Positions 12,724-63,978 of a stretch of 64,000 bases of DNA are shown piece after piece. Position 1 is the first letter of the stretch; the number at the start of each line of letters is the position of its first letter. The position numbers and the translations under genes are program-made. Below the pieces are notes generated by a model that worked only from the letters and a program-made list of their open reading frames with translations, ran no database searches and was not told the origin of the DNA. Origin of the DNA: Tetrahymena thermophila SB210 (lineage: Eukaryota; Ciliophora; Oligohymenophorea; Hymenostomatida; Tetrahymenidae); the NCBI RefSeq assembly GCF_000189635.1, contig NW_002476534.1, positions 976,924-1,040,923 on the forward strand, in the 5' to 3' direction.

Positions 12724-13635
12724 ATACTAATAAAAAAAATATATGAAATGTGGTGCATTAATAATTTAATAGATAAGAATACATTTTTGAGTAATTTTAA
12801 AAATTGTAACATTTTTAAAAATTCAAGCGCTTTTTGTAATTAAAAGACCAATCAAAGTCCTTTTTTTTCATTTTCAAATACTAAAAAAGTAGAAAATAAT
12901 TGTAATAACAATGATTAATTACGTTACAAAAATAACAAGCTATTACTTTTTTAATAAATAGAGTGAAATCCAACTACTATTTTCGTAATAAATTTAATGC
13001 AATAACTTTCTAAGAGACTTTGAAATGTTAAATAAAGAATATTAGATTTTATTAAAGTTATTTATGACGTAATATGCTTCATTAATTTAATTTTTCTACT
13101 TAGAATACAATTTCAGGTAAGCAAATAAACTAATAAGAGTACGATAAATTCTAGTTAAGTTATAAATAAATACTTAACTATCATTCTACTTTTAATTTGT
13201 TCTAGTCGTAAGATTAGTAATCTTCTTTGTTTATTTAGTTATTTTGTTACCTTAACTTAATATTATGTTTATTAATACGGTTTAGAATAACCTATTTGAA
13301 TAAAATGTAAAAATTTAAATACTATTTAAAAATATGATGTACTTAACAACAATTATAATTTTAAAGAAACTACTTTATAAAATGAAAATCCTAGTTCAAT
13401 TACTTGTTACATTTATTGATAAAAGAATTTGTTTTCTATCAAATTATTAATGTTGACTGTAGATTAAGATATAGAATGTAAAGAGAAGATTAATATATTT
13501 CTATATTTTATTACTTATTAATTGAATTTTATCCACAAAAAGATTAATTTTTTGGTAACCTTTTGATAATTTACAATTTCTTTTCGTTCTTATAATCTAA
13601 TTTAAAAATAAAAAAATAATAAAAAAGTAAGAAAA
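12724..13635 (+). promoter_or_regulatory. Gene B upstream block shared with C, E and F
   Basis: This region is similar to the DNA before genes C, E and F, so the duplicated unit includes the 5' spacer. At 12824-12866 it contains the element AAGCGCTTTTTG...GACCAATCAAAG, recurring about 800 bases before the ATG of E and, less exactly, of C. The last ~200 bases are the best conserved part, with a shared TTTTTTGGTAACC stretch and AAAAAGTAAGAA just before the start codon. Promoter activity is inferred from conservation among paralogues, which may only reflect recent duplication. Confidence 0.45.
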
Positions 13636-27829: not shown

Positions 27830-28190
27830 TAAAAAAATGTGTAAGTAATTGAACTATAATTTTTATTTTTTTTACTTTTTAAATTTTATTCAAATAACTT
27901 CTTCTAAAAAGCATTAATTAGTATTCGGTTAAGTGAGGATAGGTAAATGACTAAAAATATAACAAAGAAGATAATTAGCTTATGGCTAGAAGATAATAAA
28001 AAGTTGAATGATAATAAAGTATTTATTAAAAAATTAACTAAAATACATCATACTTTTATTCATTTACTTATTTACATTCTCTTCTCTATTACTTTGTAAA
28101 GGATATAAAACAAATTGCAATCATGTGTAGAAAAAATAAATTAATTAAGGATATTACGTCATAAATAATTTTAATACAATCTAATATGTA
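27830..28190 (-). other. Inverted ~360-bp promoter-side segment before gene C
   Basis: The reverse complement of this stretch matches the forward sequence before gene F (~52095-52515), and also the B and E spacers. Shared blocks include TTATTTATGACGTAATATCCTT, TTTCTACACATGA and CTATCCTCACTTAA. Outside the limits (AAATGTTAAT on the left, TTCTATCAAA on the right) C runs in the same direction as the others. B, E and F agree, so the inversion occurred in the C copy. It lies ~200-560 bases before the ATG. Confidence 0.85.
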
Positions 28191-39376: not shown

Positions 39377-39668
39377 TTTCATTATTATTTTTAAAATACC
39401 TAAATATATTTATGTGCAACTTATTAATTACCTTTTTAATCTTTTTTAAGTGAAAAGTAAAAATAGTTCATTTATTTTTAATTTTAACTTTCCTTTTAAA
39501 TAATTTTTTAATTTAGATGTTCATTTTATTTTAGCCTATGAATTTCCAAATTTTTTATTATTTAATCTACCTTATTTAATTTTTTTTAATAAATTCATAG
39601 AAATTGACCTTAATTAATGTATTTTCTTTATTAAAAGAATTCTTTTGAAAAAGTTTTAGGATATCAAT
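39377..39668. other. Spacer 3' of gene C
   Basis: AT-rich sequence resembling the 3' flank of gene B for a short distance (AGTGAAAAG...TTTTAACTTTCCTT), as expected for tandem copies. No gene seen. Confidence 0.5.
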
Positions 39669-40440
39669 GAATTCGTATTAATTAAAAAGAAACCACATTA
39701 ATTATTTGGAGATTAAAAGCTTTAAATTAATAAAATATATTTTAATTATTTATTTAATCGTTTATTTTTTATTTCTTAATTTTAAAAACTCAATCTGAAA
39801 AATTTTTAAATTATTTCTAGTTTGTTTTATGATTAAATTAAATTTATAAAATTTAAATTAATTAATTAATTCTAATAACATTTAAAATGATATCAACTAA
39901 AATATGATAAAGAATAATTGCAATAATTTTAATCAATCATTAAAATAGATTAATTTTATTAATAAAATTGTTTGATTTGAAGCTATGAAATTTTCTTCTT
40001 TTTTTATAGATTAGGTAAATACTTTTAATAAGCTTATTATTTAAAAACATATTTTTTGGAAATTAGATTTTCTATTTATAGCAACATTATACAATTAAGA
40101 TATCTTTTTATCTGAGTATAATAAGCTATACCAAAAGTAATATTTAGTTTTACAAGAAATAAAAAGAATTTAGTAATACTTTCTTTTTTAGATCTTTATA
40201 AAACAAAATCAAATTATTAGAACTAATTACAAATCTATATTTATTCATTTTATTGGGTATTTTAAGGAAAAAAAGCAAAGAGTAATAGAGGCAAGGAAAA
40301 TCTTTAAATTAATGATAATTACATTCAAATATATGTATTTATTTTTTTTCTTTTTTAATAGTTTTTAAATTTAAAGAGCTTATTAATATTTTAGGTTTAT
40401 TAATTTCAGATTCTTTATTTAGTTATTTACCATAAATCCT
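39669..40440. repeat. Non-coding tandem duplication, copy 1
   Basis: It starts GAATTC, then AAAAGAAACCACATTAATTA. It contains GAGTATAATAAGCT and TTTAGTAATACTTTC, and ends near CATAAATCCT. All recur in order in the copy at 40523-41350. No coding frame or terminal inverted repeats were recognised. Confidence 0.8.
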
Positions 40441-40522
40441 CTTTACCAAAATAATGTCTAGAAAAGATAGATAAAAGAATATTATTTAAAAAATGTTTGT
40501 ATAAAATTTAGAGATAATAATT

Positions 40523-41350
40523 GAATTCAATTTTATTTAAAAGAAACCACATTAATTATTTGAAGATTAAAAGCTAAAAATTAATCAAAAAAATATATTT
40601 TAATTTATTTAATTCAATTGTTAATATTTTATTACTTAATTTTAAAACTAAATACGAAAATTTGTTAAATTATTGAGAGCTTGTTTTACAATTAATTTTA
40701 TTAATTTTTAATAAAATAATTAATTCTTATTTATTTAGAAAAAAATATTAGTAAATTTCTAATTATTTCAGTAAGTTTAACGTTTAAATGTTATATACTC
40801 AAAATAATAAATAATAATTGTAATAATTATTAAAATAGATTAATTTTATAAATAAAATTTGTTTGACTTGAAACTGTAAAATTTTATTCTTATTTTTATT
40901 GATAATAATAAAAAAATAATAAGCTTATTATTATTTAATTAAATATTTTTCTTAATGGATAATATATACTTTTATATCTATAACAACATATAAAATTAAA
41001 ATAGATCTCTTACTCTGAGTATAATAAGCTTTATTATTATTAATATTTAATTTTACAGGAAATAAAAATAATTTAGTAATACTTTCTTTCTTAGATCCTA
41101 ATAGAACAAAATCAAATTACAAGAACCAATTACAAATTTATATTAAATCATTTTTTTTGGGTATCTTAAGGAATAAGAGGTAATAGTAATTATGGCAAGT
41201 AAAATTTTTAAGTTAATAATAATTAAATTTAAATATATGTTATTATTTTTTATTCTTTAGATTGTTTTTCAAATTTAAAGAATTTATTAAGTTAATGTTT
41301 TAGGTTTATTAAGTTGAGATTCCGTTTTTTAGTTATAAACTGTAAATCCT
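40523..41350. repeat. Non-coding tandem duplication, copy 2
   Basis: Direct repeat of 39669-40440 at an offset of 854 bases. It has many substitutions and small indels, so the duplication is not recent. Islands such as CTGAGTATAATAAGCT and AGAACAAAATCAAATTA are nevertheless well kept. It could be a simple segmental duplication, a mobile-element remnant or an ncRNA-bearing unit. Confidence 0.8.
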
Positions 41351-41837
41351 CATTAATTAATATTCATCCAAAATAATTTTTAATATTTATCCATAGTTAA
41401 GGTAATTCTCTTTATAAAATTAATTAAATTAAATAAAATTTTATAATTTGAGGAATCACAATAATTACTTATCTTTATTTAAATGATAATTATTTATTTG
41501 ATTTGAATAAATATACCAATTTAAGGTAAATATTGTCTTTCAGCCAGAAAATTTAATAATTAATTTTTTAGAAAATTTACTCATTTTTTGTTTTCTGTTT
41601 AAATGTTAAAAAGAGGAATAAAAATGCTAACTTTTAGATTTAATACTTCAATCTTTTTAATAATCATATTAACTTAAAAGATAGGTAATTCATTTTATAA
41701 TTTTAAATATTTTCTTTATTTTAACATCTATTTATTTTTTCATAAGCATCTAGAACTTTCATATTTCGTGATTAGACCTTTTATAAAGAATAGGAAATAA
41801 TAATAAAATAATAATTGTTCTCTTTTTAAGATACTTT
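41351..41837. other. Spacer upstream of gene D
   Basis: AT-rich. I saw no similarity to the promoter-side block shared by B, C, E and F. The promoter, and possibly an unrecognised first exon of gene D, would lie here. Confidence 0.4.
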
Positions 41838-43661
41838 ATGCTCTATTTAAATATAATTTGCAAGCAAATATTATAACCAATAGTAAATTTAAAGTTTTTT
41901 TTAATAGTTTTGAATTAATATATTAAATAAATAAGGTATAAATTTACAAGTATTTAACCTGAAAATGTTGAAGTTTAAAGAATTATTTTAGAAGAAACTA
42001 AAGTGTAGTTAGATTTTATAAGAATTCAAAAGTACAAAGATATTAAAATTAGAGTCATTTTATCTTACAACAATTAATATTTATAAAATTAATAACCTAT
42101 TCTTCAATACAAGTAAATCTGTTCTTTCTTTTTTTAAATAAATTTAAATTAATAAAAATTTTAAAAATTCAGAACTCAATGCTTAAATTATACAAAGAGC
42201 TAGAATCAAAAAAGATTGTTATAAAAATCTTGTACTGGTAATACTTATTATGAAATTATATACTAAGAATGTATGTAATGTGGATAATATTGTGAAGGTT
42301 GTACAAACTATTACTAGTGTAATGATTGTATCAAAAAAGAAAATATTCGTAGATATGAATATTTATATGACAAAACTTGTGGTACCTGTAATGATGGATT
42401 ATTTGTAAGTTTTTCAATAGTAACTAATAAATGTTAAGGAAAGTCAAATAAATGTAAAGATATTTCAGATGATGGTAGAGTATGTAAGAGTTGCAAAGAT
42501 AGTAGTCTATTTATTAACGAAGAATTGGCAACTTGTTAAAAATGTGACACTAATAACGGGTGGTATATAAGTGATAAGTATTGTAGAAGGTGCCCATATC
42601 AATGTTTATCATGTAAAGGACCAAATCCTAATGATTGCATTACTTGTAGAGATAGATTATTGAAACATGATGATGGAAGATGCGAATTAAAATGTGATTA
42701 AGATGGATTTTATATTGAGGGATCCAAATGTTTACCTTGCAATCCTGAATTAAATTGCTAAAAATGTAATAACAGTATATCTTGCACTAAGTGTAATTCT
42801 GGATTATTTATTTAATCTGATATAAATAATGGATGTGATATTTGTTAGGATGGTTTTTTTATATCAGGTAATTATTGCAAGCGCTGTAAAGAAAATTGTT
42901 ATAAATGCAAAGATTTGAATAATTGTGAAAAGTGTGCTGATGGATTTTTTTCCAAAAATGGAATTTGTACTTTATGTCCTAAGGATCTAAAATGCAAAAC
43001 TTGCTCAGATGAAATAACTTGTACCAGTTGTAATAGTGGTGAATATTTTTACTCTAATAATACTTGTGATACTTGCAAAGAAGAATATTAAATAGATGGT
43101 ATATTATGTAAAAATTGTAAACAAAATTGTTTAAAATGTAGCTCTAAAGATGCTTGTAGTTAATGTACCAATCGATATTTTCTTAAATCTGGTAACTGTG
43201 AAGCTTGCAATCCTTCATTAAATTGCTTAACTTGCTCAGATTAACTTTCTTGTACATCTTGCACTAAAGATAAATATATAAATCCTGATGGTTAATGTGA
43301 TTTTTGTAGAGAAGGGTATTTTATTGAAAATTAATTTTGTAAAAAATGTTCAGATAATTGTTAAAAGTGCTCATCAGTATCTTAATGTATTTAATGCTCT
43401 TAAGGATATTTTTTAAAAGGAAATGTGTGTAAGTAATGTACTCCTTAAATGAACTGCTTAACTTGTATAAATGAAAACTCTTGCGAATCTTGTGAACCAG
43501 GTAAATTTATTTAAAAGGATGGAAAATGCGATAAATGTGAATAAGGATATTACATAGAAAATAAATATTGTAGATAATGTAAAATTGGATGTAGTATCTG
43601 TACTTCATACTTTAAATGTGATTAATGCATGCCCTAGTTTTATAAATTAAAAACTGTATGA
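41838..43661 (+). CDS. Gene D: small cysteine-rich protein without membrane exon
   Basis: The second exon (42173-43661) is firm. It is TGA-free in the cysteine frame, begins with RLLQKSCTGN...CMQCGQYCEGC, homologous to RLLQACDGQ...CENCHPRCNGC of gene B, and ends at TGA 43659-43661. Its repeats are a shorter class than in the large genes, of the type NxxLNCxTCxxxxxCxxC. Upstream, a 60-base intron (42113-42172) joins in frame to 41838-42112, whose ATG at 41838 is the best start I can find (587 residues in all). This first exon lacks a clear signal peptide; LKFFLIVL at residues 18-25 is the only hydrophobic stretch, so an earlier exon may be missing. No membrane segments and no GPI-type tail follow the last repeat. 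It is probably a secreted or lumenal relative of the large proteins. Confidence 0.7.
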
Positions 43662-44520
43662 TTACTAATAAACTAATTCTAATTTAATAATTTTATTTAA
43701 CATTTATTTGTAATATTAATATTTAGAAACATTATATATTTGTTTTTTGGAAATTTTCTAAAATAAATTTTTTAATAAAAATATTTCTAAATTTTATTCC
43801 ATTTTTTTTGTTTAATTTTTGATATTAAGCACCTCTTTGTATAAAATCAAAATCATATTTTAATTTAACACTTAAATGTTAATATCTTAAAAAGTAATTA
43901 AATTTCCTAAAATATTATAAAATATATGCTAACATCTTAAAAATGTTTTCATTAAATATATTTGATAATATTTGTGCTTAATATATCGCTAAATTAATTT
44001 TCAATAAATATATCTATTTTTTAATTACAATTGAGACATAAAATTTAAATTCTTTCTTTTCTAATTTATCTTAATTATTTTTAGTTCTCCATTTTCATTA
44101 AACATTTCTATTGTGTTATCACTAAAAACAATAGAAATATACACAAATGATACCAATTTTTTATATTCATCCATATTTTAGTTAAATATTTATGATATTT
44201 TAATATAATTTTAGTAAAATATTTTGGTTATTTAATAAAGCTTAGATCAACTCAAGTATAAAATAGTCTTAATTTAAGAAAGTTAAATTTCTATAAATAA
44301 ACCAAGATTTATAAAGAATTTAAAATAGAAATTCTAAGCAAAACGAATTAAAATATACATATATTAATGAACTTGGTTATCATATATTTTCGAAATTTTA
44401 ATATTCTTTTAGTTTATATCTACACTATTTATAAAAATGAGTTTAAAGTAAAATAAGTTGTGGTTTGAAATTTATTTTCATAACTTTCAATTAAAATATT
44501 CTGGCTGGTAGGAGTAAAGG
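43662..44520. other. 3' flank of D, duplicated after E
   Basis: Sequence after the stop resembles the 3' flank of gene E at 50201-51030, for example TAATTTTATTTAA then ATTTATTTGTAATATT, AACATCTTAAAAATGTTT, and GTGGTTTGAAATTTA. The duplicated 3' block therefore extends ~850 bases beyond the gene. It also holds a 10-bp hairpin (TTTCTATTGT / ACAATAGAAA) at 44105-44137. Confidence 0.65.
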
Positions 44521-45119: not shown

Positions 45120-46094
45120 TTTTTTGGAGGAGAATTTTATTTTTTCAATTTCTAAATATAATAAAAAATCTAAAAAAGCAAAAAAAAATGAAATGTGGTT
45201 GGTGTATTAATTATTTAATAAATAAATAAATAAATAAATAAATAAGAATATATTTTTGAGTAAATTTAAATATGGAAGCATTTAAATGCTTTAAGCGCTT
45301 TTTGAAATTAAAAGCCAATTAAAGTCTTTTTGTTTTTTTTTTCATATTTGAATATCAAAAAAAAGAAGACTATATTTAAATTAGTGGTGATATTATTACT
45401 AGTAAAATACCAAGCTATTAAGCTATTGTCTTTTTATTTTTTGAGGAAAATCAAACTACTAATTTTATTTCATTCTTATAAATTTTAAAAAGTTAAGTAA
45501 AGCATAGATTTTATTAAAATTATTTAGATGTAATATCCTTTATTAATTTCTTTTTTCTACACATGAATGCAATTTATTTTATAGGTAAGCAAGTAAATTA
45601 ATAAAAGATCCATAAATCTTAGTTTGTTTAAAAATAAAAACTTGATTATCATTCAACTTTTTATTATGTTCTAACCATAATATAATAATCTACTTTGTTA
45701 TATTTTTTTAGTCATTCAACTATTCTCATTTTAAAATACTACTTAACGCTGTTTAAAATAACTTATTTGAATAAAATTTAAAAACTAAAATATTACATAT
45801 TAATTTAATGTATTTAACAATAATAATAATTTATAAAAAAATAATAATCCTTCAATTATTTTTTACATTTTTTTATAAAAGAAAATTACTTTCTATCAAA
45901 TTATTAGTGTTTACTGTAGTTTAAGATATCTTATGTAATGATAGAAGATTAATATTTTTTTAAACTTTAATAATTATTAATATATTTTTATCCATCAGGA
46001 GATTAATTTTGCTTACCTTTAGATAATTTACAATTATTTCTTTTCTTTCTTATAATCTAATTAAAAATAAAAGAATAACAAAAAAGTAAGAATT
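45120..46094 (+). promoter_or_regulatory. Gene E upstream block shared with B, C and F
   Basis: Similar to the F spacer (AAAAAAATGAAATGTGGTT then AGTGTATTAATTATTTAATA) and to B. It includes the AAGCGCTTTTTG...GCCAATTAAAG element at 45292-45331 and the conserved last 200 bases ending AAAAAGTAAGAATTATG. It is the promoter side of E by position; activity is inferred. Confidence 0.45.
45217..45244. repeat. (AATA)7 microsatellite
   Basis: Seven exact tetranucleotide units in the gene E upstream spacer. The homologous place before gene F has only ordinary AT-rich sequence. Confidence 0.95.
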
Positions 46095-49000
46095 ATGAAA
46101 TCTAAAAAATACTTCCTTTTCTTTTTAACTATAATATATTCTATAATTTAAAGAGTATTTGCTACTTATCAAGTTTACTATAACTTTCATGATTAACGTA
46201 GCTATCTTAAAGAACTAAGTCCTTTACTATAAAGTGAAAATATATCAAATTAAACCTATTCAATCAAAGTAGAATCAAACGATTTGATAAGTTATTTAGG
46301 GGCTACATACCAAGCTAAATTTGAACTTAGTATCACTTCGCCTAGGTAAAACCATATTTAAATTAAAATTTAAGTAAATTTTAAGAAACTAAATATAATT
46401 AGGAATATATCTTTTATAATTTAAGACTAATATTAAAGAGTTTTACACTTAACTCTAAATTAATCAATTTATAGCTTCACTATAGAATAAATACTTGACT
46501 AGCCTTACTTAATTTACACTATATTTTCTTATACAAAAGAAGAAAGTGTTTTGAACTAGCTTAAAATCAAAGGATTAAAGTAAAACATTTTTTATAAATG
46601 GGATATCATCAAATATCTTTTAAACTTATTTAATTTTTATAAATTCTATTTTAATTAAAATAGGCTCTTCATAAATATAAATAATTATTAGCTCAAATAA
46701 AATATTTCTTATTAAAATATTAACTCTTCCTTTTAAGAATGCTATAAACATGTAATTCATCATAATTTTTTCATCCTATTTATTAGCGCTGTGAAAATTG
46801 CCACCCTAATTGCCAAGGTTGCACAGAATACAGGAAGTGCAAAGATTGTTCAAAACAACCTAATTAAATGTCGAGATATGATTAGCTTGCAGATGGATTT
46901 TGTGGTTTTTGTCCATCAGGATAAACTTGGAAACCTAATAATATATGTAATGGTTGTTCAGATACATGCAACTGTGATAATAGTAAAAAATAATGCCTTT
47001 CATGTAAAGATAAAAGTAAAAATTAGCTTAATGTCGAAAGAAACACATGCGAGCCATGTTAGTTAGACTAAGGATATTACATAGATGGATAATTTTGCAA
47101 ATAATGTAATCTTATTTGTAAGACATGCAAAGGACCATCTGATAGTGATTGTTTATAATGTATTGATGGAGTTAAAAAATATGATGATGGAAGTTGCAAA
47201 TATAGCAATTAAAATCCTAATGATTGCGTTTCTCCTTACAAATAAGATAAATCTTCAAATTGCGTTTTATGTAATGAAGATGGCTAGTATGCTAAGGGTA
47301 AAAATTGTGTTGAATGTTAAGCTGATTTAAAATGTTAAAAGTGTTCACCTGAGACATAGTGTACTTAATGCTATACAAATAAACCTGAAAAATACCTACA
47401 AGATGGAAAAAAATGCACTGATTGTAAATAAAATGGCTACTTTATCAATTAAAGTTTAAGCATTTGTGACAATTGCATTTAGAATTGTGACATATGCAAT
47501 AACAAATCTGAATGCTAAAAATGTATTTCTGGCTTTTATGTCTTAGAAGATAATAAAACTTGCTCTTAGTGCAAATAAGATGGATACTACATAGATAAAT
47601 CAAATTAATTTTGCAATAAATGCCCACAGGAGAAGAAGTGCAAAAAATGTAATAATGATTTGAAATGTACTGAATGCTAAAGTGGCCTCTACCTTTATAA
47701 TTCAGATAACTGTATTTCCTGTGGCGAAGGATATTTTTAAAATGGAAAAAATTGCTTTAAATGCACTGAAAATTGCTAAATCTGTGCAGATCAAAATAAA
47801 TGTAAAAAGTGCTCATAAAATTTTTATCTGTTCAATAACGGAGCTTCTTGCATACCTTGTAATAGTTAAGGATAATTTTAATAAAGCGATACATGCTAAT
47901 TATGCGATGCCTCTTGCTCTAAATGTTAAGGAATGACATAAAATGATTGTTTAGAATGCAAAGACTCAACGTAATTTAGTTATTATGGAAAATGTGAAGC
48001 CTGCTCAAGAGATGGAGTTTTCCAAAGTGGTAGATAATGTTTTGATTGTGCTTAAAATTGTAAATCTTGTACTGGAGTAGAAATAGAGAAATGCACGTAA
48101 TGCATAGATACATTTAGCTTTTAGTAAGATAAAAAATGTATAATATGCCCAACCTAGGAGAAATATTTTATTGATGGTAATAACTTCTGTTTAAAGTGTC
48201 ACGATACATGTTAAACATGTTCTGATGAAAAAGAAATATCCTGCAAGAATTGTATTGATAATTTAATTCTAGATAAATATGACCGCAAATGCAAAATATG
48301 TAATACTAATAATGGATTCTTTGTAAATAGTTAGAATGAATGCGAGAAATGTCATTCTACTTGCAAATAATGTGATGGACCTTCTGACACAAATTGCAAA
48401 GAGTGCATTCAAAATTTAATCTTTTTAAACGGTAAATGTAAGTGCTAAACTAAAAATTGTTTGTAATGTGATCCTAAATTTAATTGTAAGACTTGCTCTA
48501 ATGATTTATCATGCAACGAATGTTAAGATTCATTCTTTAAAAATAAAAATAATATTTGTGTTCCTTGTACAGAAAGCGGCTTTTATAAAAAAGAAATGCA
48601 GTGCTTAGAGTGTAAATAAGAATTGAACTGCTTATCATGTGAAGAAGATAAATGCTTAAGTTGCAAATAAACAAATGAATATATTCAAGAAGATGGTAGT
48701 TGTGCTATATGCAAGGAAGATGGATACTTTGTTTAAGATAAATATTGTAAAAAGTGTAACCCTTTAGCAAAATGTAAAACTTGCATAAATAAATCTGAAT
48801 GCTTAACTTGTTATCCTCCTGATAATTTGTAAAAAGATAAAACTTGTGGGTAATGCTTGTAAGGTTAATATTCTGATTTAGGACTTTGTAAACCATGCAA
48901 ACCAGATTTTAATTGCAAAACATGTGAAAATGGAAATAGTTGTTCGTCGTGTCATGAGAATCTTTTTATAGATTTCTAAAATAAATGTTAAGATTGTAAA

Positions 49001-50200
49001 GGAGATGGTATTTTTATTGAAAAAACAACGAATTAATGCATGAAATGTAACGAATTAAAGAATTGTAAAGCATGTGAAAATATAAATGATTGTATTAGTT
49101 GCTCAAGTGGTAGTTTTTTACATGATGATAATTCATGTAAACCATGTGATGATGGATACTTTATTGAAGGTGATAATTGTAAAAAATGTAATTAAACATC
49201 TTTATTTTGTGCTACTTGCTCTAAAATAGACTCTTGTGATAGCTGCTTAGAAGGATATTATTTGGATTAATATAAAACATGTGTCAAATGTGATTAAAAT
49301 GGATAGTATAAAGAAGGAAAATAATGCAAAAACTGTGATCAAAAGTTAAATTGTTTAACATGTTCAAATGGAAATTCTTGTGAAACTTGTAAAGGCGATG
49401 ACAAAATTCAAGAAGATTTAAGATGTTCTCCTTGTATTTAAGGTTATTTTGTCGAAGGTAAATTTTGTAAAAAATGCTAAGAAACTTTTAAATGTTAAAC
49501 TTGCTCTAGTTTTAATGCATGTGACAAATGTTTCCCAGGTGATTTTTTAAAACCTGATAAAAGTTGTGGAAAGTGTTAAGATGGCTTTTTCTAAAATATA
49601 ATCACTAAAAATTGTGATCCATGTTAGTTAGAATAAGGATATTACATTGAAGGATAATTTTGCAAAAGATGTAATAATATTTGTAAGACATGCAAAGGAC
49701 CATCTGATAATGATTGTTTATAGTGTATTGATGGAGCTAAAAAATATGAAGATGGAAGTTGTAAATATAACAATTAAAATCCTAATGATTGCATTTCTCC
49801 TTACAAATAAGATAAATCTTCAAATTGCGTTTTATGTAATTAAGATGGATAATATGCTAAGGATAAAAATTGTGTTGAGTGTTAAGCTGATTTAAAATGT
49901 TAAAAGTGTTCACCTGAGACATAATGTACTTAATGCTCTTAGGGATATTTCTTAAAAGGAAACTTATGTCAGTAATGCCCACCTTAGATGAACTGCTTAA
50001 CTTGCATAAATGAAAACTCTTGTGAATCTTGTGAACCAGGTAAATTTATTTAAAAGGATGGAAAATGCGATAAATGTGAATAAGGATATTACATAGAAAG
50101 TAAATATTGTAGATAATGTAAAATTGGATGTAGTAGCTGTAGATCATACTCTAAATGTGATTAATGCATGCCATAATTTTATAAATAAAAAACGGGATGA
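46095..50200 (+). CDS. Gene E: chimeric cysteine-rich protein, no membrane exon, one-base deletion near 46731
   Basis: Exons are 46095-46345, 46403-46579 and 46664-50200. The signal peptide begins MKSKKYFLFFLTIIYSII. The gene is a mosaic. From the start to ~48439 it follows the large genes (closest to F). From ~48440 to ~49600 it has D-like short repeats. At ~49616-49940 it repeats its own N-terminal segment (47049-47370), and from ~49937 to the stop at 50198-50200 it matches the end of gene D (SCESCEPGKFIQKDGKCDKC). It has no exon 4, so the product should be soluble or secreted, ~1,321 residues. Exon 3 enters in one frame but the cysteine frame (TGT at 46790) is another. A base is missing in CTTCCTTTTAAG at 46728-46734, where B and C have one more. 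As given, translation would end at TGA 47661-47663. It is either a pseudogene or a sequence error; the long cysteine frame downstream is intact. Confidence 0.78.
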
Positions 50201-51030
50201 TAAATAATAAATTAATTCTAATATAATAATTTTATTTAATATTTATTTGTAATATTTAAAATAAAGTTTTTATTTAAGCTAATAACTTAATTTACTTTAA
50301 ATTTTTAAAAACATTACTTTGATTTTTTGAGAGTTTTTAATAATTTTGTTTTAATAAAAATATTTTTAAATTTTCTTCCACTTTATTTGCTTAATACTTG
50401 ATATAAATCACTTATTTGTATAAAAAGTTTAATATTTTAAAAAAATTAATTAAATTTCTTAATGTTTTATAAAATATTTTACTAACATCTTAAAAATGTT
50501 TACTTAATATATATTTGATAATATTTGTGTTAAATAAATCACTGAACTGTTTTTCAATAAAAATCTCTTTAATTCTTTCTTTTCTAATTTATCTTAATAT
50601 TTTTAGATCTCGATTTTCTTTAATATAAATATATTTATTGTGTTAGCACAAAAAATAATAGGGAAGTGATAAATATAAATCATTGATACCTAATTTTTAT
50701 ATTCATACATATTTTAGCAAGATACTTAAAATATTTAAATATTATTTAGAAATATATTTTAGATATTTTATAAAGCTTAGATCAACTTCTTCTCAAATTT
50801 TAAATAGTCTTAATTATAAGCAAATTAAATTTCTATAAAGAAATTAAGATTTATAAAGATTTTATCAGAGATATTCTAAGTTAAACGAATAAAAATATGT
50901 ATTAATTAGCTTGATTATCATATAATTTCCATATTTTAATATTCTTTTAGTTTTTATCTAAACTATTTTTAAAAATGAGTTGAAAGTAAAATAAATTGTG
51001 GTTTGAAATTTACTTTCATTTTCATTCACC
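50201..51030. other. 3' flank of E, copy of the D 3' flank
   Basis: Homologous to 43662-44520 through about AAATTGTGGTTTGAAATTTA near 51010. It shows that the D-derived 3' end of E arrived together with its downstream DNA. No gene seen. Confidence 0.65.
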
Positions 51031-52529
51031 CTGATTAATTAAAAAATAATAATATTTATACAGTGATGTTATCAAGCTATTTTGGCTAAAGGATTATATT
51101 TTTAAAAAATAACTATTTTTATTAGCAAATTTAATATAGGAAACTAACGGTAGATTGTTTAAAAAATAGATTTGTAAATAATAAAAATGGAAATGTTATT
51201 AATGAAGCAATTTTATATTTATAAATTGTAATTTAATTTATTTTTATATAATATTACAATGTTTTTTATAAAGAATTTAAACTTCTACATACTTTATTTG
51301 GCAAAATGCTCTAAAAAATAACGATTTCATATTTTTAATAAATTTTAGTTTAAAATAGGATTTTTAAAGTTAAATCTATTAAAAGGTTAATGGATGAAAT
51401 TATTAATATTAATTGTTTTCTGAAATGGAAATATAATTTTTGAAAGGAAAATTAATTAATTGATTATGAGATTAATTTGAATAGCTATTCAGATTGTAAA
51501 TATTGATTTATTTAGAGTATATTAGGATTACATTTTTTAATGAGAAAAGTGATAAAAATAGATTATTTTGAATAAAATTTAGTTTTTATTTCCAAAATTA
51601 TTAGATAAGTTTAAAATATTCATGTCACTTTATAAAATTTTATTTTTATTTGTGATAGAAATAAGATTTTAAATAGCTTTATTTATAATTTTATTTATAA
51701 ATTTTGGTAATGATATTAATTGTATACATGCATAGGTATAATTGATATATGATGTAATAATGCATCAAATATCTAACTCAAATGAAAACTTTTTAGGTAT
51801 TAGAAATGAGTAAAGATGATAAAAAATCTAAAAAAGCAAATAAAAAAATGAAATGTGGTTAGTGTATTAATTATTTAATAGATAAAAATATATTTTTGTG
51901 TAATTTTAATATGAAGACATTTTTTTTATATTTGAATATCAAAAAAAAAAGAAGACTATATTTAAATTAGTGATGATAATGAATATTAGAAAAATACCAA
52001 ACTATTGTCTTTTAATTTATAGAGCGAAATCCAACTTCTAATTTATTTTGTATTTTTAAATTTAATGTAATGTCATTCTTATATATTTCGAAATGTTAAG
52101 TAAAGTATATTAGATTTTATTAAAATTATTTATGACGTAATATCCTTAATTAATTTATTTTTTCTACACATGAATGCAATTTCTTTTATACTCTTTACAA
52201 AGTAATAGAGGAAAGAAGGTAAGCAAGTAAATTAATAAAAGTATGATAATTTTTAGTTATTTTAAAAATAAATACTTAATTATCATTCAACTTTTTATTA
52301 TGTTCTATCCACAAGATAATAATCTTCTTTTTTATATTTTTATAGTTATTTAGCTATCCTCACTTAATAAAACACTAATTAATGTTGTTTAAAATAACTT
52401 ATTTGAGTAAGATTTAAAAAGTAAAATGCTATTTATGAATGTTATGTATTTAACAATAATTATAAATTTAAAAATGTAATTAATTTAAAAAATAAAAATC
52501 TTACTTCAATTAATTTTTACATTTTTTGA
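51031..52529. other. Gene F upstream spacer, array-derived
   Basis: From ~51200 it resembles the spacer before gene C (AAAGAATTTAAACTTCTACATACTTTATTTGGCAAAATG). From ~51820 it resembles E and B. The AAGCGC...CCAAT element of B, C and E is missing at its expected place near 51915. The stretch ~52095-52515 is the forward version of the segment inverted before C. No coding pattern. Confidence 0.55.
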
Positions 52530-52747: not shown

Positions 52748-55700
52748 ATGAAATCTAACAAATATTTCCTTTTCTTTTTAACTATAATCTATTCTATAAT
52801 TTAAAGAATATTTGCTACTTATCAAGTTTACTATAATTTTCATGATTAAGGTAGCAATCTAAAAGAACTAAATCCTTTACTAATTAGCGAAAATATATCA
52901 AATTATACCTATTCAATCAAAGTAGAGTCAAAAGATTTGATAAGTTATGTAGGAGCTACATACCAAGCTAAATTTGAACTTAATATCTCATCGCCTAGGT
53001 AAAACTATATTTAAATTAAAATTTAATAAATTTTACGATATCTAAATATAATTAGGAATATATCTTTTATAATTTAAGACTAATCTTAAAGAATTTTACA
53101 TTTAACTCTAAGTTAATCAGTATATAGTTTCACTATAGAGTAAATACTTGACTAGCCTTACTTAATTTACACTATATTTTCTTATACAAAAGAAGAAATA
53201 ATCTGGAAATAGCTTAAAATCAAAGGATTAAAGTAAATCATTTTTTATAAATGGAATATCATCCAAATATCTTTTAAACTTATTTCAATTTTTATAAATT
53301 CTATTTTAATTAAAATAGGCTGTTCATAAATATAAAAAATTATTAAATAAAGCAATCTATTTCTTTACAAAATATTAACTCTTCTTTTCTAAGGCTACTA
53401 TCAACATGTGGTGAATAATAATTTTTTCATCCTATTTATTAGAGCTGTGAAAATTGCCACCCTCGTTGCAAAGGTTGTACAGAATATAAAAAGTGTAAAG
53501 ATTGTTAATAATAACCAGGCAAAAATGAGAGATACGATTAACTTGCAGATGGGTTTTGTGATTTTTGTCCCTCAGGATAAACTTGGAAACCTGATAATAA
53601 ATGTAAAGGTTGTTCAGTTACATGCAACTGTGATAGTAGTTATAAATATTGCATTTCCTGTAAAGATAGTATTAATAATTAGCTTAATGTTGAAAGAAAC
53701 ACATGCGAACCATGTTAGTTAGACTAAGGATATTATATTGATGGATAATTTTGCAAAAGATGTAATCTGATTTGTAAGACATGCAAAGGACCATCTGATA
53801 GTGATTGTTTATAGTGTATTGATGGAGCTAAAAAATATGAAGATGGAAGTTGCAAATATAACAATTAAAATCCTAACGATTGTGTTTCTCCTTACAAATA
53901 AGATAAATCTTAAAATTGCGTTTTATGTAATTAAGATGGCTATTATATTAAGGATAAAAATTGTGTTGAATGCTAAGCTGATTTAAAATGTTAAAAGTGT
54001 TCACCTGAGACATAATGTACTTAATGCTATGCAAACAAACCTGAAAAATACCTACAAGATGGAAAAAAATGCACTGATTGCAAATAAAATGGCTATTTTA
54101 TCAATTAAAGTTTAAACATTTGTGACAATTGCATTTAAAATTGTGACATATGCAATAACAAATCTGAATGCTAAAAATGTATTTCTGGCTTTTATGTCTT
54201 AGAAGATAATAAATCTTGCTCTTAGTGCAAATAAGATGGATACTACATAGATAAATCAATTTAATTTTGCAATAAATGCCCACAGGAGAAGAAGTGCCAA
54301 AAATGTAATAATGATTTGAAATGTACTGAATGCTAAAGTGGCCTCTACCTTTTTAATTAAGATAACTGTATTTCCTGTGGCGAAGGATATTTTTAAAATG
54401 GAAAAAATTGCTTTAAATGCACTGAAAATTGCTAAATCTGTGCAGATCAAAATAAATGTAAAAAGTGCTCATAAAATTTTTATCTGTTTAATGGCGGAGC
54501 TTCATGCATACCTTGTAATAGCTAAGGATAATTTTAATAAAGCGATACATGCTAATTATGTGATGTCTCTTGCTCCAAATGTTAAGGAATGACATAAAAT
54601 GATTGTTTAGAATGCAAAGATTCAAAATAATTTAGTTATAAGGGAAAATGTGAAGCCTGCTCAAGAGATGGAGTTTTCCAAAATGGTAGATAATGTTTTG
54701 ATTGTGCTTAAAATTGTAAATCTTGTACTGGAGTAGAAATAGAGAAATGCACGTAATGCATAGATACATTTAGCTTTTAGTAAGATAAAAAATGTATAAT
54801 ATGCCCAACTTAGGATAAATATTTCATTGATGGGAATAACTTCTGTTTAAAATGCCACGATACATGCTAAACATGTTCTGATGAAAAAGAAATATCTTGC
54901 AAGACTTGTATTGACTAGTTAAAAATAGATAAATATGACCGTAAATGCAAAATCTGTAATACTAATAATGGATTCTTTGTAAATAGCTAGAATGAATGCG
55001 AGAAATGTCATTCTACTTGCAAATAATGTGATGGAACCTCAGAATCAAATTGCAAAGAATGTACTCAAGGTTTAAGCTTTTTAAATGGCAAATGTTAAAA
55101 GTGCAATACAGAAAATTCATATTATATTGATAAAAACAATAACTGTTTAGAATGCAATAAATCTTGTTAAACATGTTCAAGTAAAGATGTATGCATCAAA
55201 TGCAAAGCTGGTTTGAGTTTTCCTTCTGACTAGGCATCAAAATTATGTATTAACTGTGACTTAGATAGTATGTATGTAAAAGATCCAGAGGGCTTAAATA
55301 TTTGTTAAAACTGCCATATGAATTGCAAAGGATGCAAAGGACCAAACATTTAAGATTGCATTTAGTGTAAAGATTAATTTTATTTCAACCCAAAAGATAA
55401 TTCTTGTGAAACATGCAATTTGGAAGCAGATAAGAAGTATATTGATGACAATAAATACTGCCAAAATTGTGATGTTTAGTGTAAAACCTGCACCGGACCT
55501 GGAAACGGAAAGTGTAAACTCTGTGCAGAGGGCTTATATTTTAATGATTAGATGGTATGTATAAAATGCCCAAGTGAGAAATTTTATATAACTGATTATA
55601 AATATTGTAAGAAATGTCATGATTCTTGTCTTACCTGTAATGGTAGTTCAGATAATAATTGCTTGAGTTGTGCAAATGATTTGGCTCTCCAAGAAAATAG

Positions 55701-58700
55701 CACATGTAAATAATGCTAAATTGAAAATGGGTTCTTTGTTGCTAATGAGAACGGTGTCAAAGTTTGCAAGCAATGTGACTCGTCGTGCAAAACTTGCCAT
55801 GGATAGAATAACACTGATTGTGATTCCTGTTTAAATTTAAATTTTTTGATTGACTCTGATACAAAAATTTGTCAAGCTTGCTAAACTGAAAATAAATATT
55901 TCTAAGATGGAGTTTATTGCAAGAAATGTGATGATTCTTGCAAGAAATGCAAAAATTAAGATGCTAAATCATGTATTGAATGTGCAGAATATCCTATAAA
56001 ATTGTATTTTAGAGATGGTATTTGCCAAAAGTGTGAGGAGTCTGAAGGATTTTACATCAAAGATGACAAAATAAGCTGTGAAAAATGTGAATCAAGTTGT
56101 AAGACTTGTTATGGAGGATAAAGTAACTAGTGTAAAACTTGTTAAGAAAATAAATATTTATTTTAAGATTATACATGTAAGGAATGTGATATAGACAACA
56201 AATTTTTCAAGAGTGAAATATATTGTTTACCATGCAATTAAGAATGCTAAACCTGCTATGGATAAGGTTAAGACTAATGTCTGAGCTGCCCAGTTAATAA
56301 ATTTTTATTAACTGAGAATGGAAAACAAACTTGTATTGATTGCCTATCTACTTAATCATATTATTAAAATGGAAATAATTGTATCAGATGTGATTCATCT
56401 TGCTTAGAGTGTAAAGATTCTAATAAAACTAGTTGTACTAAATGTAGGGATACTGATTATGAATTCGAAGACGGGACTTGCTAATTAGAGTGCCCCCAAG
56501 ATGGTTATTTTAAAGAAGGTAAAAAGTGTAAAAAATGTCACTCTAGTTGCAAGCAGTGCAAAGGATAAGGTCAAAATGAATGTTTGTTATGTAATGGTGA
56601 ATAAAAAATATATCCTGAAGGGAATTGTAATGAATGTCAGATAAATAATAAATATTTTATTTAAGATAAATTTTGCTTACCTTGTCATAATTCGTGTAAA
56701 ACTTGTAAAGATAGCTCAGAAATTGGCTGCTTAGATTGCAATGCGAATTTATACAAGCAAGTTGATTAAACTTGTAAAAAATGTGATTTAAACAGTGGCA
56801 TGTTTGTTGATAAAGCTGATAATATATGTAAAAAATGTGATTTAACTTGCTAAACTTGCTCTACATCATCTGAAAATGATTGTTTAACCTGTTCAGGAAA
56901 CAGAAAATTCTATCACGAAAAAAATTCTACTTAGAAAAAGTGCATTTTATGTTAAGTTAATAATAAATAATTTGAAAAAGAAGATATGTGTTTGGATTGC
57001 GATGCAACATGCTTAACATGTAGTGGTGCTTCTGAAACAGAATGCATTACTTGCGATGGATAATATCTTATGCACTAAGATAAAAAGTGTAAAATTTGTG
57101 ATACATCAAATGGCTTTTATATTTAAGATAAAAACTGTATAGCATGTAGCGATGGTTGTCAAACATGCGATAAAGATGGCTGTAAGAAATGCATAGGTAA
57201 TTTTAAACTCAAAGAAGGAGTATGTACTGAATGTAAGCTATCTGATGGTTATTTTATATAAGACTCTAACTGTATAAAATGTCATTCTTCTTGTAAGGAG
57301 TGTTCTGGACCATCTTAATTTGATTGTACAACCTGTAAAGATAATTAATATCTTAAAAAAGTGGATGAAAATGATTCAAATTCCCAAAAACAATGCTAGG
57401 AATGTCCTAATGAAGGCTATTTTGTGAAAGATAAGGAATGTGTTAAGTGCCATGATACATGTCTTAAGTGTCACTCTTAAGACTCCACTGGCTGTGATGT
57501 ATGCAAAGACAATTTAAAATTTAGAACAGATAAGACTTGCTAAAAATGCCCTTCTGAAAATTTTTATGTTGATAAAGACAGATGTTTGGAATGCTTTGCA
57601 GATTGTAAAACATGTAGTGGTCCTTAATCTAACTAGTGTTTATCTTGTAAGGAGGGTTTAAATATATATTACAAAGATAACATTTGCAGAGATTGCAACA
57701 AAGATAATTTCTGGATATCAAAAGAGGATAATATTTGCTATGATTGTCACTATTCTTGCTAAACCTGTAATGGAAATAATAAAGAAAATTGTACTAAATG
57801 TTAAACTCCTTTCATGTGGCTTGGTAATTTATGTGATTCATGCCCAAAGTCTAATTATTATGCAGATCTAACAAATAATAAGTGTATTGCTTGTCATTAA
57901 TCTTGTGAATTTTGTAGTAGTGACTAAGAAACTGATTGTTTAAAGTGCAAAAATGATGCGAAATTCCATACAGAAAAAATCAATTAAGGTGGAATTATTT
58001 AAGAAGTAAAGTATTGCAAGAATTGCTAAATAAATAACGGTTATTTTGTTAAAGGAGACTAGTGCTTAAAGTGCCATAGTAGCTGTTTAACTTGCGATGA
58101 TGAATAAGAAAATAAATGTAAGTCTTGTTAAGATGGATTGTTTTTATTTGAAGATGGAACCTGCAAGAAATGTCCTAATGAGGAGTACTATTCAGAAAAA
58201 ATAAATCAAATTAATATGTGCAAGTAATGCTCTCCTAATTGTCTAACATGCTCATAATTTGGAGATGACAAATGCCTAACATGTAAAAAAGATCTTTATA
58301 AAAATGATTCAGACAAATGTGAAAAATGCGAAACAGATAAAAAAGTTTTTATTAAAGGAGATAGATGCCTTCACTGTGATAGCACATGTAAAACATGTAA
58401 AGATGAGAGTCCTAAGGGTTGTGATAAATGTGAAGATAATCTTAGTAAGCTGCCAGATAAGACCTGCTAAAAATGCCCACAAAAGGGGTATTTCTTAGAA
58501 GGAGAGTTTTGCAAATTTTGTCATAACACTTGTGAAGAGTGTGAAGGCGAAAATTAAAAATAATGCAAAATTTGTGCAACTGGATTAAAATTTTGGAAAG
58601 ATGAAAACGGAGATTAGATTTGTGTAAAGTGCTAAGAAAAGATTGCCCATTATGTTGATGGATTATATTGCAAGCCTTGCCATTCAAGCTGTTTAGAGTG

Positions 58701-61700
58701 CTCTGGAGGAGACTAATCACAATGCAAGAAATGTGTAGAAGGGAAATATTTCAAAAATAAAAATAATTAAGGTGAAGGTTAATGTCTAGAATGTGCAGGA
58801 TCTTATTTTGTATAAGGAGATTTATGCTTAGCTTGCCATTAGAACTGTTAAACTTGCAAAGGGTCTTAAGAAACAGATTGTATTTAGTGTGCTGGATAAC
58901 TTAAATTCAACAAAGATAAGTCAAAATGTATAAACTGTAGGACAGATAATGGATAGTTTTTGAATAATGACATTTGCTATGATTGTGATAAAAGCTGCAA
59001 AATCTGTAATGGAGAAAGTAATACAAACTGTTTATAATGTATTGATGATCTTTATTTTTTCCAAGAAGACGATAATACTAAAAATAAATGTAAGCAATGC
59101 CCCTCAGAATTATACTATATAGATCTTAATAAAAGAGATTGTTTAAAATGTGATGATTCATGCTAAACTTGTAAACCTGGGTTGCCTAAACAATGCTTAA
59201 AATGCAAATAAGGAGGAACTTTTATGGACGATGGTACATGCTAAATTTGTCCAGAGTTTGGCTTTTTTGTAAATGATGGTAAATGTTTGAAATGTGATCC
59301 ATCTTGCAAAAAGTGCTAAGGGGACAGTGCTTTAAATTGTACTGAATGCCATGAAAATAATTACTTTGACTTAAATGACAGTAATAAGTGTAAGGAATGT
59401 GATACTTTAAAAGGTCACTTTATATAGAATAACAAAAATTGTTAGAAATGTAACGATTCTTGCTAGACTTGTAAAGATGATACTGAATTCGGTTGTTTGA
59501 CCTGCAAGAATACTTTATATTTTAAAGATTTTGTTGACCCATCTGATACTTCAAAAGTAAAATAAAAGTGTGAGACTTGTGATTAAAATAATGGATGGGT
59601 TATTAATGGAGCAGATGTTGGAAAACAAAAATGTTAAAAATGTCATGAGTCATGCAAAACATGTTCTGGCATAGATGCTAAATAGTGTACTGAATGCAAG
59701 AATGAACTTTATTTTAGAGATGAAATATGTTAATAATGTGATGTTAGTGATGGTTTTTTTATCAAAGATAAATTTTGTTTAAAATGTTCAGAAAACTGCA
59801 AAACTTGTAGTGGTACTGAAAAAAATGAGTGTCTTAACTGTAGAACAAATAAATTCTTTATTGAGAATACATAGGAGTGCTAGTCTTGTAATTAGGACTA
59901 AGGATTTTATTTAGATACTAATTCCAGGTGTTTTAAATGCCATAGTTCGTGTAAAACATGCAATGGTAGTGAAGATAAAAATTGTACTAAATGTGCAGAT
60001 AAATTAAGTTTTCTTGATGGATTATGCAAAATTTGTGATGTATAAAACAAATATTATATTGAAGAATCGACAAATAAATGCCTAAAATGTCATGATACTT
60101 GCTAAACATGTAAAGGAAGTGGGGTAAATTAATGCCTGTCTTGTAAAGATAAACTAACATTTGATGAGGATAACAATTGCATTACATGTCCATCAGAAGG
60201 ATATTACGTAGATAACCATAAATGTATTAAATGTCATGATTCTTGTAAATAGTGTAGCTCTTAATTAGCAACAGGTTGCACTGAATGCCAAACTTATCTT
60301 TTTTACTATCCAACTAGTAAACTTTGTAAGTCTTGTGATATTTAAGACGGTTATTTTGTGAAGAAAGAACCAACAGGAAATTTCAGTCAGTTATGCTTAT
60401 CGTGTCATTAAGATTGTAAAACTTGTATTGATGAACAACAAAACAATTGCCTAATTTGCAGAGAAGTTTATTCGTTTAAAAACGATAAAAACATATGCAA
60501 GAATTGTCATAAAGACTGCTAAAAATGTAATGGAGAATAATAAACAGATTGTATAGAATGTAAGTAACCTGGTTATCACATAAGGTTAGATATGACTTGT
60601 GGTTTATGTTTATCTAATTAATATCTAGAAGACAATCATTGTAAAAATTGCTCAGATAACTGCTTAAAATGTGGTGATATTAAAACATGTTAAGAATGTG
60701 GAAACAATACTCATATAAAATAAAATGGTAAATGTGGAGAATGTGAGAAAAATGAATATGCTGACAAAGCTACCAACAAATGTATGCCATGTCATGAAAC
60801 TTGCTTAAGTTGCAAAGGTAGTTAAAATAATGAGTGTTTGTAATGTTAAGATGGAGCTTTAAGAATAAGGACAGATACTAAGCAATGCGGTAAATGCGAT
60901 TCTAATTAATATTATGATAATATCTAGTGCTATGATTGTCATAGAGATTGTAAAACATGCTCAGGACCTGGTAATGATATAGATTAATGCACGTCATGTG
61001 TAGATGTAACTAAATACGAATGTAATTAAAATGATTTGAACTATTTTGCTTAGAATTACTAACAAAAAAAACAATGTGAAAAGAAATGCTTGAAATGCCA
61101 TTAGAATTGTAATTAATGCTTTGGAGAATAGAGCAACTAATGCATGAAATGCGATAGAATGATCCTTTAGAATGATTTTTCTTGTTAAAGAAAATGTCCA
61201 GAAAGAATGTTTTTCGATGAATCTGATCCTAAAGAAGTTAAATGTACAAATTGTGAAAAAAATTGTAAAGTTTGTGAAAATCAAAATAAATGTTTAGCAT
61301 GTGATGAAGAATATACTTTATTAGAAGGTTAGTGTTATAAATGCTTGAGTCACTAATATTTAGGTAATTTTTGATTTTTTGCAAATTTTTCATTTTAAAA
61401 ATTTCATCATTCGATTATTAAAATCATAAATAGTATTAAATTTCTAAGTCTTTTTTAGCTATTGTAACTTTAATTAAGTAAATAAATAAATATACTTAAT
61501 ACAAATCATTTTAATTTAAAACCCTCATATTTTTTTAATGATTTTACCTTACAGAATTAGATAATGAGCAAAAAAAATATTTTCATTACAATTTTTTTTA
61601 AACAATAATCTGCAAAATCCACACTCTAACCCAAGTATTTATTATAGTTGTATTTATTACATTAAAAAATATTTATTCAATTAATAAATTTAAATAAAGT

Positions 61701-63978
61701 GCTTTTTTTTGAGAAAAATTGAATCAATTTTTTTTAATTTTAAATTTAAATTTTAAAATCTATTTTGATTAAATTATAAATTTATTTTTTTTTGTATAAA
61801 ATAGATTAAAAACTTAAAAAATGCATTGAATGCGATAGCGATTGTAAAACTTGCTTTAATCAAGGCAGATAAGCTTGTATCGAGTGTTCAGATCCTGCCA
61901 AATTTTTTGATTAAGATAATTTTTGTGTAAGCTAATGTGTTTATGGGTACATTAAGAATGACAAAACAAATAGATGCTAAAAGTGCAAATATATTATAGA
62001 CTAAAAAACTAAATCTAAAACATGCGTGGTAGATTGCAACAAAAATTAATTTTTAGATCCTCAAACTTAAATTTGCAATGATTGTTAAAATAATTGCTCA
62101 GAATGCGAATCCCTCACAAAATGTACATCATGCATCTAAAATTATCATTTTGTAAGCGAAAAGTAAGAAGCTTGCAGAAAATGCGAGTAAGATGAGTATA
62201 TTAGCAGCAAAAATGTATGTAAGAAGTGCGAGTTTTTAAATTGCTTAACTTGCAATGAAAATCATTGCACTAAGTGCTCTTACAAGTATCTTCTTAATGA
62301 AAGTAATACATGTAAGTATGATGATCGCTACAATTACTATGAGTGCACTGACTTAAATAAATTAGATGATAGCTGTGAAAAAGAGATGTAATTGATAGAC
62401 AAAATTGATTTTGGTATGAAATAATCTATAATAGCAACATATTCTATACAAGCTATTTCTTTTTTTATCCTAAGATCCACTTCAGTTATGTCTTACTCAA
62501 TACAAATTCAATAATAAATAGGTAATAGTTATTTGCTAAAAGACTCTTTAAAAAGCCTAAGTTTAGGACCTACTTTTTATTAGTAAAATTTCTAATAAAA
62601 TTTAATCAACATGATACCAAATCCCTTTAGGTATATTTCAGCCTATGACTCATATTTTTATCCTAAGTAGAGTATTAATAGTTTATAATCTTTCAAATTA
62701 GATTAAAGTTTAGAAAGCAAATATCTATAAAATAACACTTCATTAAAAGAATAAGCATATTAATAAGCGAATCAAGGTATTTATAACAGTAGTTAAAATA
62801 TAACCAGCAATTCAGTGAAGCATTTAAAAAATGAAATATAAAATTAATAGATTAATTCTAATCCTCTAAGGAATTTGTTGTAAGAGAAAAGAGAGCTAGA
62901 AGAAAATTCATTAATTTAAAATAATCTAAGAGATATCCGCTCTTAAGAATTGAGTAGCATATTTGTAGAAACCATAATAATGTATAGTTTTATTTTCCTT
63001 TTGATAATACTATTCTATGTGATAGTATATTTTTTTAGAAATAAGTATGAGCTGATGAGTCAAATCTATAGTAATAGATTCAAATTTATTATTCAAATGC
63101 AACAAATATTCTCCAACTTCATTTTTACAAGCATGCTCTATTCTTATTCTTTCATGAATTTTTCTTCTATGAGCTTAATAAACTGGTTAGGAATAGCTTT
63201 TTAGGTTGTTTACATAATATTTTATTGTACTTTTGGATTTATACTATTTAGAAAAGTAAGAAATTTCAGTAAAAAAGTGTATGATGAAGACTAACTTAAA
63301 TATTAGCTATTTTTTATAGAAGGAATAGCCACTGATTTGCCTTTCAATAAATATTTTTGGTTTATTTTTGAGTTCAGAAAAGTGATTATTTTACTTTTAC
63401 AATTTTGTGTTCCTCTAACTGAAATATCTGTCTTGCTCATTTTGATAATTAACTTTTCTTTTTTGATTTTTTATTGGTTAACAAAGCCATTTGAAGTTAA
63501 AAGTTAGCTATGGTATTACTTTATTCTTGAAATTCTGAATTTTATGAATAGTTTATTGCTTTGTTCTCTGTTCTTTTCCAACTCTAAGATAATAAGTTGG
63601 TGGATTTTAGTAAATCTTATGCTCATTAACTTTATAGTTTTAATTTATACGATTTATAGCTTATGCAGAGGTATATATATCAAATACTTCAAAGTGAGAT
63701 TTATAGTATCAAAAGTTTAAGAAACTGAGGTTTCAATTAAATGGAAGCAAATAAGAAACAATTTTAAGTTAAAAAGATATATCATTTCCAAAAAAAATGC
63801 ACCAATCCCTCTATCAGTGAATGAAATACTTAATTAAAGTGCTGATATTAGTTAATTTAGTAGCTATTCTTCAAAGAATTTTGAAGAAAAATCTGATTGC
63901 ATAAATGAATTATCTATTAAATGGTAAATAAATCCTCTTAAAGTGAGAGAGATAGCTCTTCCAAAAATTCAAAAATGA
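52748..63978 (+). CDS. Gene F: giant cysteine-rich, C-terminally multi-pass membrane protein
   Basis: Exons are 52748-52998, 53056-53232, 53319-61363 and 61805-63978, 10,647 coding bases, ~3,548 residues, with a consistent frame at all junctions. The signal peptide begins MKSNKYFLFFLTIIYSII. The exon-1 insertion GCTACTTATCAA (ATYQ) is shared with E but not with B or C. The ectodomain has the same order of CxxC repeats as C, including RLLSTCGEQ...CENCHPRCKGC at its start. Exon 4 carries the final repeats, hydrophobic segments from about residue 3207 and the tail EEKSDCINELSIKWQ ending at TGA 63976-63978. It is the longest and apparently intact copy, and closest to C in the 3' half. A cell-surface location is inferred from the signal peptide and membrane segments. 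Confidence 0.88.
61364..61804 (+). other. Gene F intron 3, expanded form
   Basis: 441 bases, against 203-204 in B and C. The first ~170 bases, including AAAACCCTCA, match B and C. The extra middle part (CTGCAAAATCCACACTCTAACCC through AATAAATTTAAATAAAG) is found again in front of the exon-4 pseudogene at ~25490-25680. The phase-1 acceptor AAATAG|AT is conserved. Confidence 0.7.

Follow-up and report, generated by a model that had tools for sequence, protein, structure and literature searches.

Gene E in a tandem array of cysteine-rich genes of Tetrahymena thermophila is a mosaic of at least four pieces

Introduction

The stretch of DNA analysed here (the window; 64,000 nucleotides in full) carries a row of Cys-rich genes in which one member, gene E, resembles different neighbours at different points along its length. 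How was this gene put together, from how many sources, and does it still encode a protein? The earlier note on this DNA described E as a chimera of two classes of array member, with a 5′ half of the large-gene type and a 3′ half of the type of the short gene D, and as a new secreted form. Nothing on this array was found in titles or abstracts among the matches listed from open-access papers.

Results

Organization of the array

The window could be read only under genetic code 6 (ciliate; TGA as the sole stop), under which the + strand has frames that run from stop to stop over 3010, 2696, 2777 and 2740 aa. A table 11 scan of the window for open reading frames of at least 200 aa was empty, as were a tRNA scan and an Rfam scan (gathering cut-offs) of the same stretch. 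The GC content, taken in 2-kb steps, was 0.16–0.31 across the window. Six genes, all on the + strand, are arranged head to tail: the large genes A, B, C and F, the short gene D, and E. The array is one of tandem ciliate Cys-rich genes that are growth-factor-receptor (GFR)/VSP-like. Introns inferred in B, C, E and F were 57–58 nt and 83–87 nt long, in agreement with the Tetrahymena lengths given in excerpts of PMC5014332. Two neighbours of E serve as its main points of comparison:

41772..43661, + strand, Cys-rich frame of gene D (stop to stop)
52748..63978, + strand, gene F, the nearest large relative of E (from its ATG to the terminal-exon stop)

Each large gene has, besides its long Cys-rich frame, a terminal exon that stands apart and carries both Cys repeats and six hydropathy peaks (61801–63975 in F, with like counterparts in A, B and C). 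The terminal exon of F matched no Pfam family (E ≤ 1) and no NCBIfam family (E ≤ 0.01), and the five rows returned from the PDB (E 0.08–0.87) were taken as chance; an AlphaFold model of a large-gene terminal exon had a mean pLDDT of 31.8. The N-terminal part of D (42213–42794) is colinear with the N-terminus of the large genes at 35% amino acid identity, which marks D as an old short relative and not a fragment.

Two irregularities were seen around C. About 320 bp upstream of the gene (27870–28187) are inverted relative to the flanks of B (13039–13319), E (45505–45790) and F (52107–52426), and the spacer on its 3′ side seems to be tandemly duplicated (39477–40445 and 40338–41355; 74%, over 39477–41355).

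The large-type front end of E

The limits assigned to E in the earlier note were correct: the gene starts with the ATG at 46095 and its TGA ends at 50200. The front end and its flank comprise:

45226..46094, + strand, 5′ flank of large-family type (HSPs from 45226 to B and from 45336 to F)
46095..46345, + strand, exon 1, large-type N-terminus with a signal-peptide-like start (signal by eye)
46787..48439, + strand, large-type 5′ Cys-rich part (identity 0.929 to F; omega 0.22–0.26 to F, C and B)

Identities were read against a background of 0.50–0.55 (two control pairs at 0.502 and 0.548, the latter from unrelated repeat stretches). The large-type match starts 0.76–0.87 kb ahead of the ATG, and since it begins 5′ of the gene, the upstream region of E is of large type; from 45500 to 46094 the identity was 0.885 to F versus 0.519 to the D flank. 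A 19-residue hydropathy rule flagged no signal in exons 1 and 2.

E follows the large family to 48439, as had been described, with a weak extension to 48458–48461. The identity to F dropped there from 0.929 (1653 columns) to 0.527 in the colinear continuation (1052 columns). The abrupt switch reported at this point is therefore sound, but the D-like repeats reported after it are not, the sequence that follows being at background when compared with D. This first junction falls at a Cys codon, and weak similarity persists for about 20 bases beyond it. The 70 sites that the 5′ part shares with the large genes are divided among C (26), B (23) and F (21), and a donor tree of this part (FastTree) had supports of only 0.22–0.25.

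A middle piece of a third class

48440..49612, + strand, middle, of a short-repeat class, mostly CxxC-x5-CxxC-x5-CxxC (starts at junction 1)

The identity of the middle to D was 0.553 over 994 columns, about that of the unrelated control pair (0.548); a copy of D was thereby ruled out. The best nucleotide match between the two (69% over 154 nt, E 6.7e-8) lies directly upstream of the D tail and is a hint of old kinship. As protein, the middle matched D (243 bits) and the N-terminal part of A (241 bits) at 32% identity each, followed by the N-terminal part of F (216), the 5′ part of E itself (213) and the rest of F (186). All five scores exceeded the top of 200 shuffles per target in which Cys was held fixed (134–159). 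After correction for composition the scores were 151 bits for D versus 145 for A.

Cys spacing was counted as (a,b) in cores of the form CxxC-x(a)-CxxC-x(b)-CxxC, and it separates the pieces. The middle has (5,5) in six of eight cores, with (5,4) and (6,5) in the remaining two. D has (3,5) in five, (5,5) in four and (3,7) in one of ten. Beyond residue 551 of F, 36 of 41 cores are (3,7); the first 551 residues of F and the 5′ part of E are alike, each with three cores of (3,5), five of (3,7) and two of (5,5) in ten. Judged by its sequence, the middle represents a short-repeat class of its own; none of the genes of the window is its parent, and it had no match at 0.001 in the PDB.

The second block, the tail and the 3′ flank

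49613..49936, + strand, second copy of the large-type N-terminal block (starts at junction 2)
49923..49937, + strand, junction 3, a 15-nt stretch common to both parents (F 15/15, D 14/15)
49937..50200, + strand, D-type tail with the TGA stop (0.917 to D; omega 0.14, 87 codons)
50201..51019, + strand, D-type 3′ flank (HSP 49895–51019 to 43356–44481)

The second block had been overlooked, as had the parental flanks and the frame break described below. It is 93.8% identical to F, 93.2% to the 5′ copy of E itself, 92.0% to C, 91.7% to B and 80.3% to A; set against D, the figures are 0.938 to F versus 0.613 to D. In a small tree the block grouped with A (support 0.76), though its raw identity peaks at F.

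The terminus of E is a near copy of that of D, as had been noted, with an identity of 0.917 over 264 nt (0.506 to F) and an HSP at 49895–50256 of 90%. The likeness continues into the 3′ flank, where 50201–50700 is 0.812 identical to the D flank. No fewer than three junctions can thus be counted in the gene, and all of them fall at Cys codons and keep the frame.

The absence of the membrane exon from E was borne out: there is no hydropathy peak in its Cys part, and none at the C-terminus of E or D. A tblastn search with the helix part of the terminal exon of F (E ≤ 1e-3) found only A, B, C, F and a relic at 25.9–26.6 kb. E is without a membrane part because its tail resembles that of its small neighbour D.

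The relic is a terminal membrane exon of large-gene type (25762–26633), lying between B and C without a gene body upstream. It shares 85–88% identity with B, C and F and 78% with A, the tblastn search hit it in pieces in three frames, and it is the trace of a deleted large gene.

E is accordingly a mosaic of at least four pieces, which are nearest to different array members and are separated by sharp switches. The two-parent chimera is ruled out by the middle and the second block: two parents cannot account for three or more junctions and for a source that the window does not contain.

Exchange across the array

A comparison of A, B, C and F gave 233 informative sites (C with F 132, B with F 54, B with C 47), and they are clustered by partner. 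The label changed 108 times along these sites, versus 136.3 times when permuted (P = 0.0002 of 5000). In bins of 500 bases the identity of F to A was 0.938 and 0.916 in two bins and 0.70–0.89 in the other 14; in those two (58386–58885 and 59386–59885, respectively) F is nearer to A than expected, as by gene conversion. Exchange is general in the array, and E is its strongest case. Recombination among the array members, proposed earlier together with the two-parent picture, is thus well supported even without that picture, since the switches are sharp, junction 3 lies in a shared stretch, the 5′ and 3′ flanks are of different types and the ancestry is patchy.

Age and constraint of the pieces

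The dS of the 5′ Cys part of E was 0.19 to F, 0.24 to C and 0.33 to B; that of the second block to the 5′ copy in E, F, C and B was 0.15–0.28, and that of the tail to D was 0.33, the last from 87 codons only. Among F, C and B themselves dS was 0.22–0.37. From this similarity the pieces of E are about as old as the duplications of the large genes.

The large-type and D-type pieces of E are under coding constraint, with the omega values listed above (0.22–0.26 to F, C and B; 0.14 for the tail to D). The changes specific to E in the 5′ part are 15 synonymous and 24 nonsynonymous, for a neutral expectation of 8.9 synonymous, 28.6 nonsynonymous and 1.4 stops. All Cys columns of this part are kept (89/89), where 4.9 losses were expected when the 39 changes specific to E were placed neutrally (P = 0.001, 2000 simulations). 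The same test gave P = 0.0185 for F, 0.009 for C and below 0.0005 for B. The absence of stops in E (P = 0.21) is not telling alone.

The frame break and the splicing of E

46346..46402, + strand, intron 1, 57 nt, inferred (57–58 nt equivalents in F, C and B)
46403..46579, + strand, exon 2, inferred
46580..46663, + strand, intron 2, 84 nt, inferred (acceptor as in the working model for B, C and F)
46733..46736, + strand, place where E goes one base out of frame with B, C and F (alignment)

In B, C and F the reading passes cleanly across two short introns and on into the Cys frame. When applied to E, the same splice model stops after 475 aa because of the one-base difference near 46733; a tblastn search with the N-terminus of F is split at this place (46095–46733 and 46736–47443). 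The new secreted form announced earlier is therefore unproven, and an intact secreted product requires either another splice choice or a sequence error. A second one-base length difference was seen in B, where it breaks the Cys frame at 21251 relative to C and F. Either break may be real or a sequence error.

One such splice choice is an acceptor at 46737, which would give an intron 2 of 158 nt and an in-frame product of 1296 aa. In F, C and B the corresponding acceptor also keeps the frame, and the introns there would measure 158–162 nt. The two intron 2 acceptors are 74 bases apart, and gene A keeps a similar protein stretch there. That A keeps the skipped stretch favours its being coding, which argues against 46737 as the usual acceptor. 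Altogether 48 rows of frame-keeping GT-AG choices were counted in E (13 with an extra intron, 21 with a changed intron 2 and 14 with a changed intron 1); three of the 21 are the 46752 introns over again, listed with intron 2 left unspliced. With 48 so easily found, the existence of an in-frame escape proves nothing. Rescue by a 35-nt intron (46752–46786) was judged unlikely, introns of 24–45 nt in Tetrahymena being probable annotation artefacts according to excerpts of PMC5014332, which place the length classes near 55 and 64 nt.

It is possible, if not the reading that we favour, that E is the same mosaic in a dead or dying state, in which the break near 46733 is genuine, every splice form runs into it and no secreted protein is made; such a state is compatible with a mosaic origin. 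In favour of this, the splice model that reads cleanly in B, C and F gives 475 aa in E, and decay does occur in this array, given the break in B and the relic exon. The complete set of cysteines and the balance of synonymous and nonsynonymous changes argue the other way, as do the in-frame acceptor at 46737 and a Cys frame free of other breaks down to 50200. Conversion from intact relatives could, in turn, give a dead E the semblance of constraint.

Discussion

E is a true mosaic, more complex than was claimed earlier and of a known kind. Its pieces, junctions and flanks, the absent membrane exon and the patchwork among A, B, C and F are best accommodated if E is an old mosaic member of the tandem array that arose in the germline through ectopic recombination or gene conversion, and we regard this origin as probable. 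Four parts would have been joined: a promoter region and 5′ end of large type, CxxC repeats of a third class, the second block, and a 3′ end of D type. The joins would have been made in frame at Cys codons, through exchanges that may have been unequal crossing-over or conversion. If translated intact, the product should be secreted and soluble; it would be an anchorless relative of the large membrane proteins, presumably a rod of repeats stabilised by disulfides and expressed from a large-gene promoter. A more specific proposal, which we consider doubtful, is that recombination in the array put a receptor-type promoter and recognition end ahead of a soluble tail and so created a secreted decoy of the cell's own large membrane proteins, the break being bypassed by the 46737 acceptor that is in frame also in B, C and F.

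Because the array is repetitive, with the three junctions sitting within repeats, an assembly error joining parts of different genes had to be weighed. A mis-join of genes of the window would give near-identity to its sources, but the 5′ part, the block and the tail are 7.1%, 6.2% and 8.3% off their nearest relatives in the window, and the dS of the pieces (0.15–0.33) is about that of the large genes (0.22–0.37). Such an error, at least between genes of the window, is very unlikely. Nor is it at all probable that E preserves the old arrangement, with the large genes and D derived and the switches reflecting losses or gains in the others. The colinearity of D with the large N-terminus does imply that the long and short types share ancestry, but E holds two N-terminal blocks, one in the usual place and one directly ahead of the tail; the second is as young as the divergence of the large genes (dS 0.15–0.28), and the 5′ and 3′ flanks are of different type. 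That E is a germline segment to which a membrane exon is added as the macronucleus develops, as with the mating-type genes, whose germline form consists of tandem incomplete segments without the membrane exon (excerpts of PMC3608545), is scarcely credible for a gene with its own stop, a tail and 3′ flank in common with D, and no terminal-exon fragment adjoining it.

The old mosaic that we favour may be set beside several known systems. In layout, A, B, C and F are like the Tetrahymena mating-type proteins MTA/MTB and MRC1 as outlined in parts of PMC3608545 and PMC10901506, with a terminal exon in which Cys repeats are followed by several hydrophobic segments. The array differs from the head-to-head MTA/MTB pair in running head to tail with six genes on the + strand, the large genes have six hydropathy peaks where five helices are described for MTA/MTB and MRC1, and most of their Cys-rich part lies outside the terminal exon, unlike in those genes. 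E itself, consisting of a Cys part without a hydropathy peak, does not have the terminal exon with GFR repeats and membrane helices that characterizes MTA/MTB in the same excerpts. The Ser immobilization antigens, to judge from excerpts of PMC4136848, likewise have Cys-periodic ectodomains encoded in tandem arrays. E and D are without a hydrophobic GPI-type tail by hydropathy, which makes an identity with the Ser antigens unlikely.

With PF03302, the Pfam model VSP for the variant-specific surface protein of Giardia (gathering cut-off 31.4 bits), the E frame scored 55 bits, D 45.1 and F 111.6. Taken by piece, the 5′ part of E scored 48.6 bits and the block plus tail 35.5, whereas the middle, at 18.7, fell below the cut-off. 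VSPs proper, in Giardia, have a C-terminal membrane helix with a short conserved tail, and E differs from them in having no membrane helix.

The event is most likely of a well-known kind, an ordinary outcome of exchange inside gene arrays. A close parallel is offered by the Tetrahymena LRR genes built of 90-bp exons, for which excerpts of PMC6564038 describe ectopic recombination or gene conversion between paralogues. In both cases ciliate paralogues made of repeat units swap modules; the domain is a different one, and the modules of E meet at Cys codons within a single long exon instead of being joined exon by exon. E offers a piece-by-piece case of module exchange, yielding an anchorless gene that carries the promoter region of a giant membrane-protein gene. 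Since the same excerpts (PMC6564038) count GFR Cys-rich domains in the top seven for the species-specific genes of Tetrahymena, mosaics of this sort bear on how such divergence arises.
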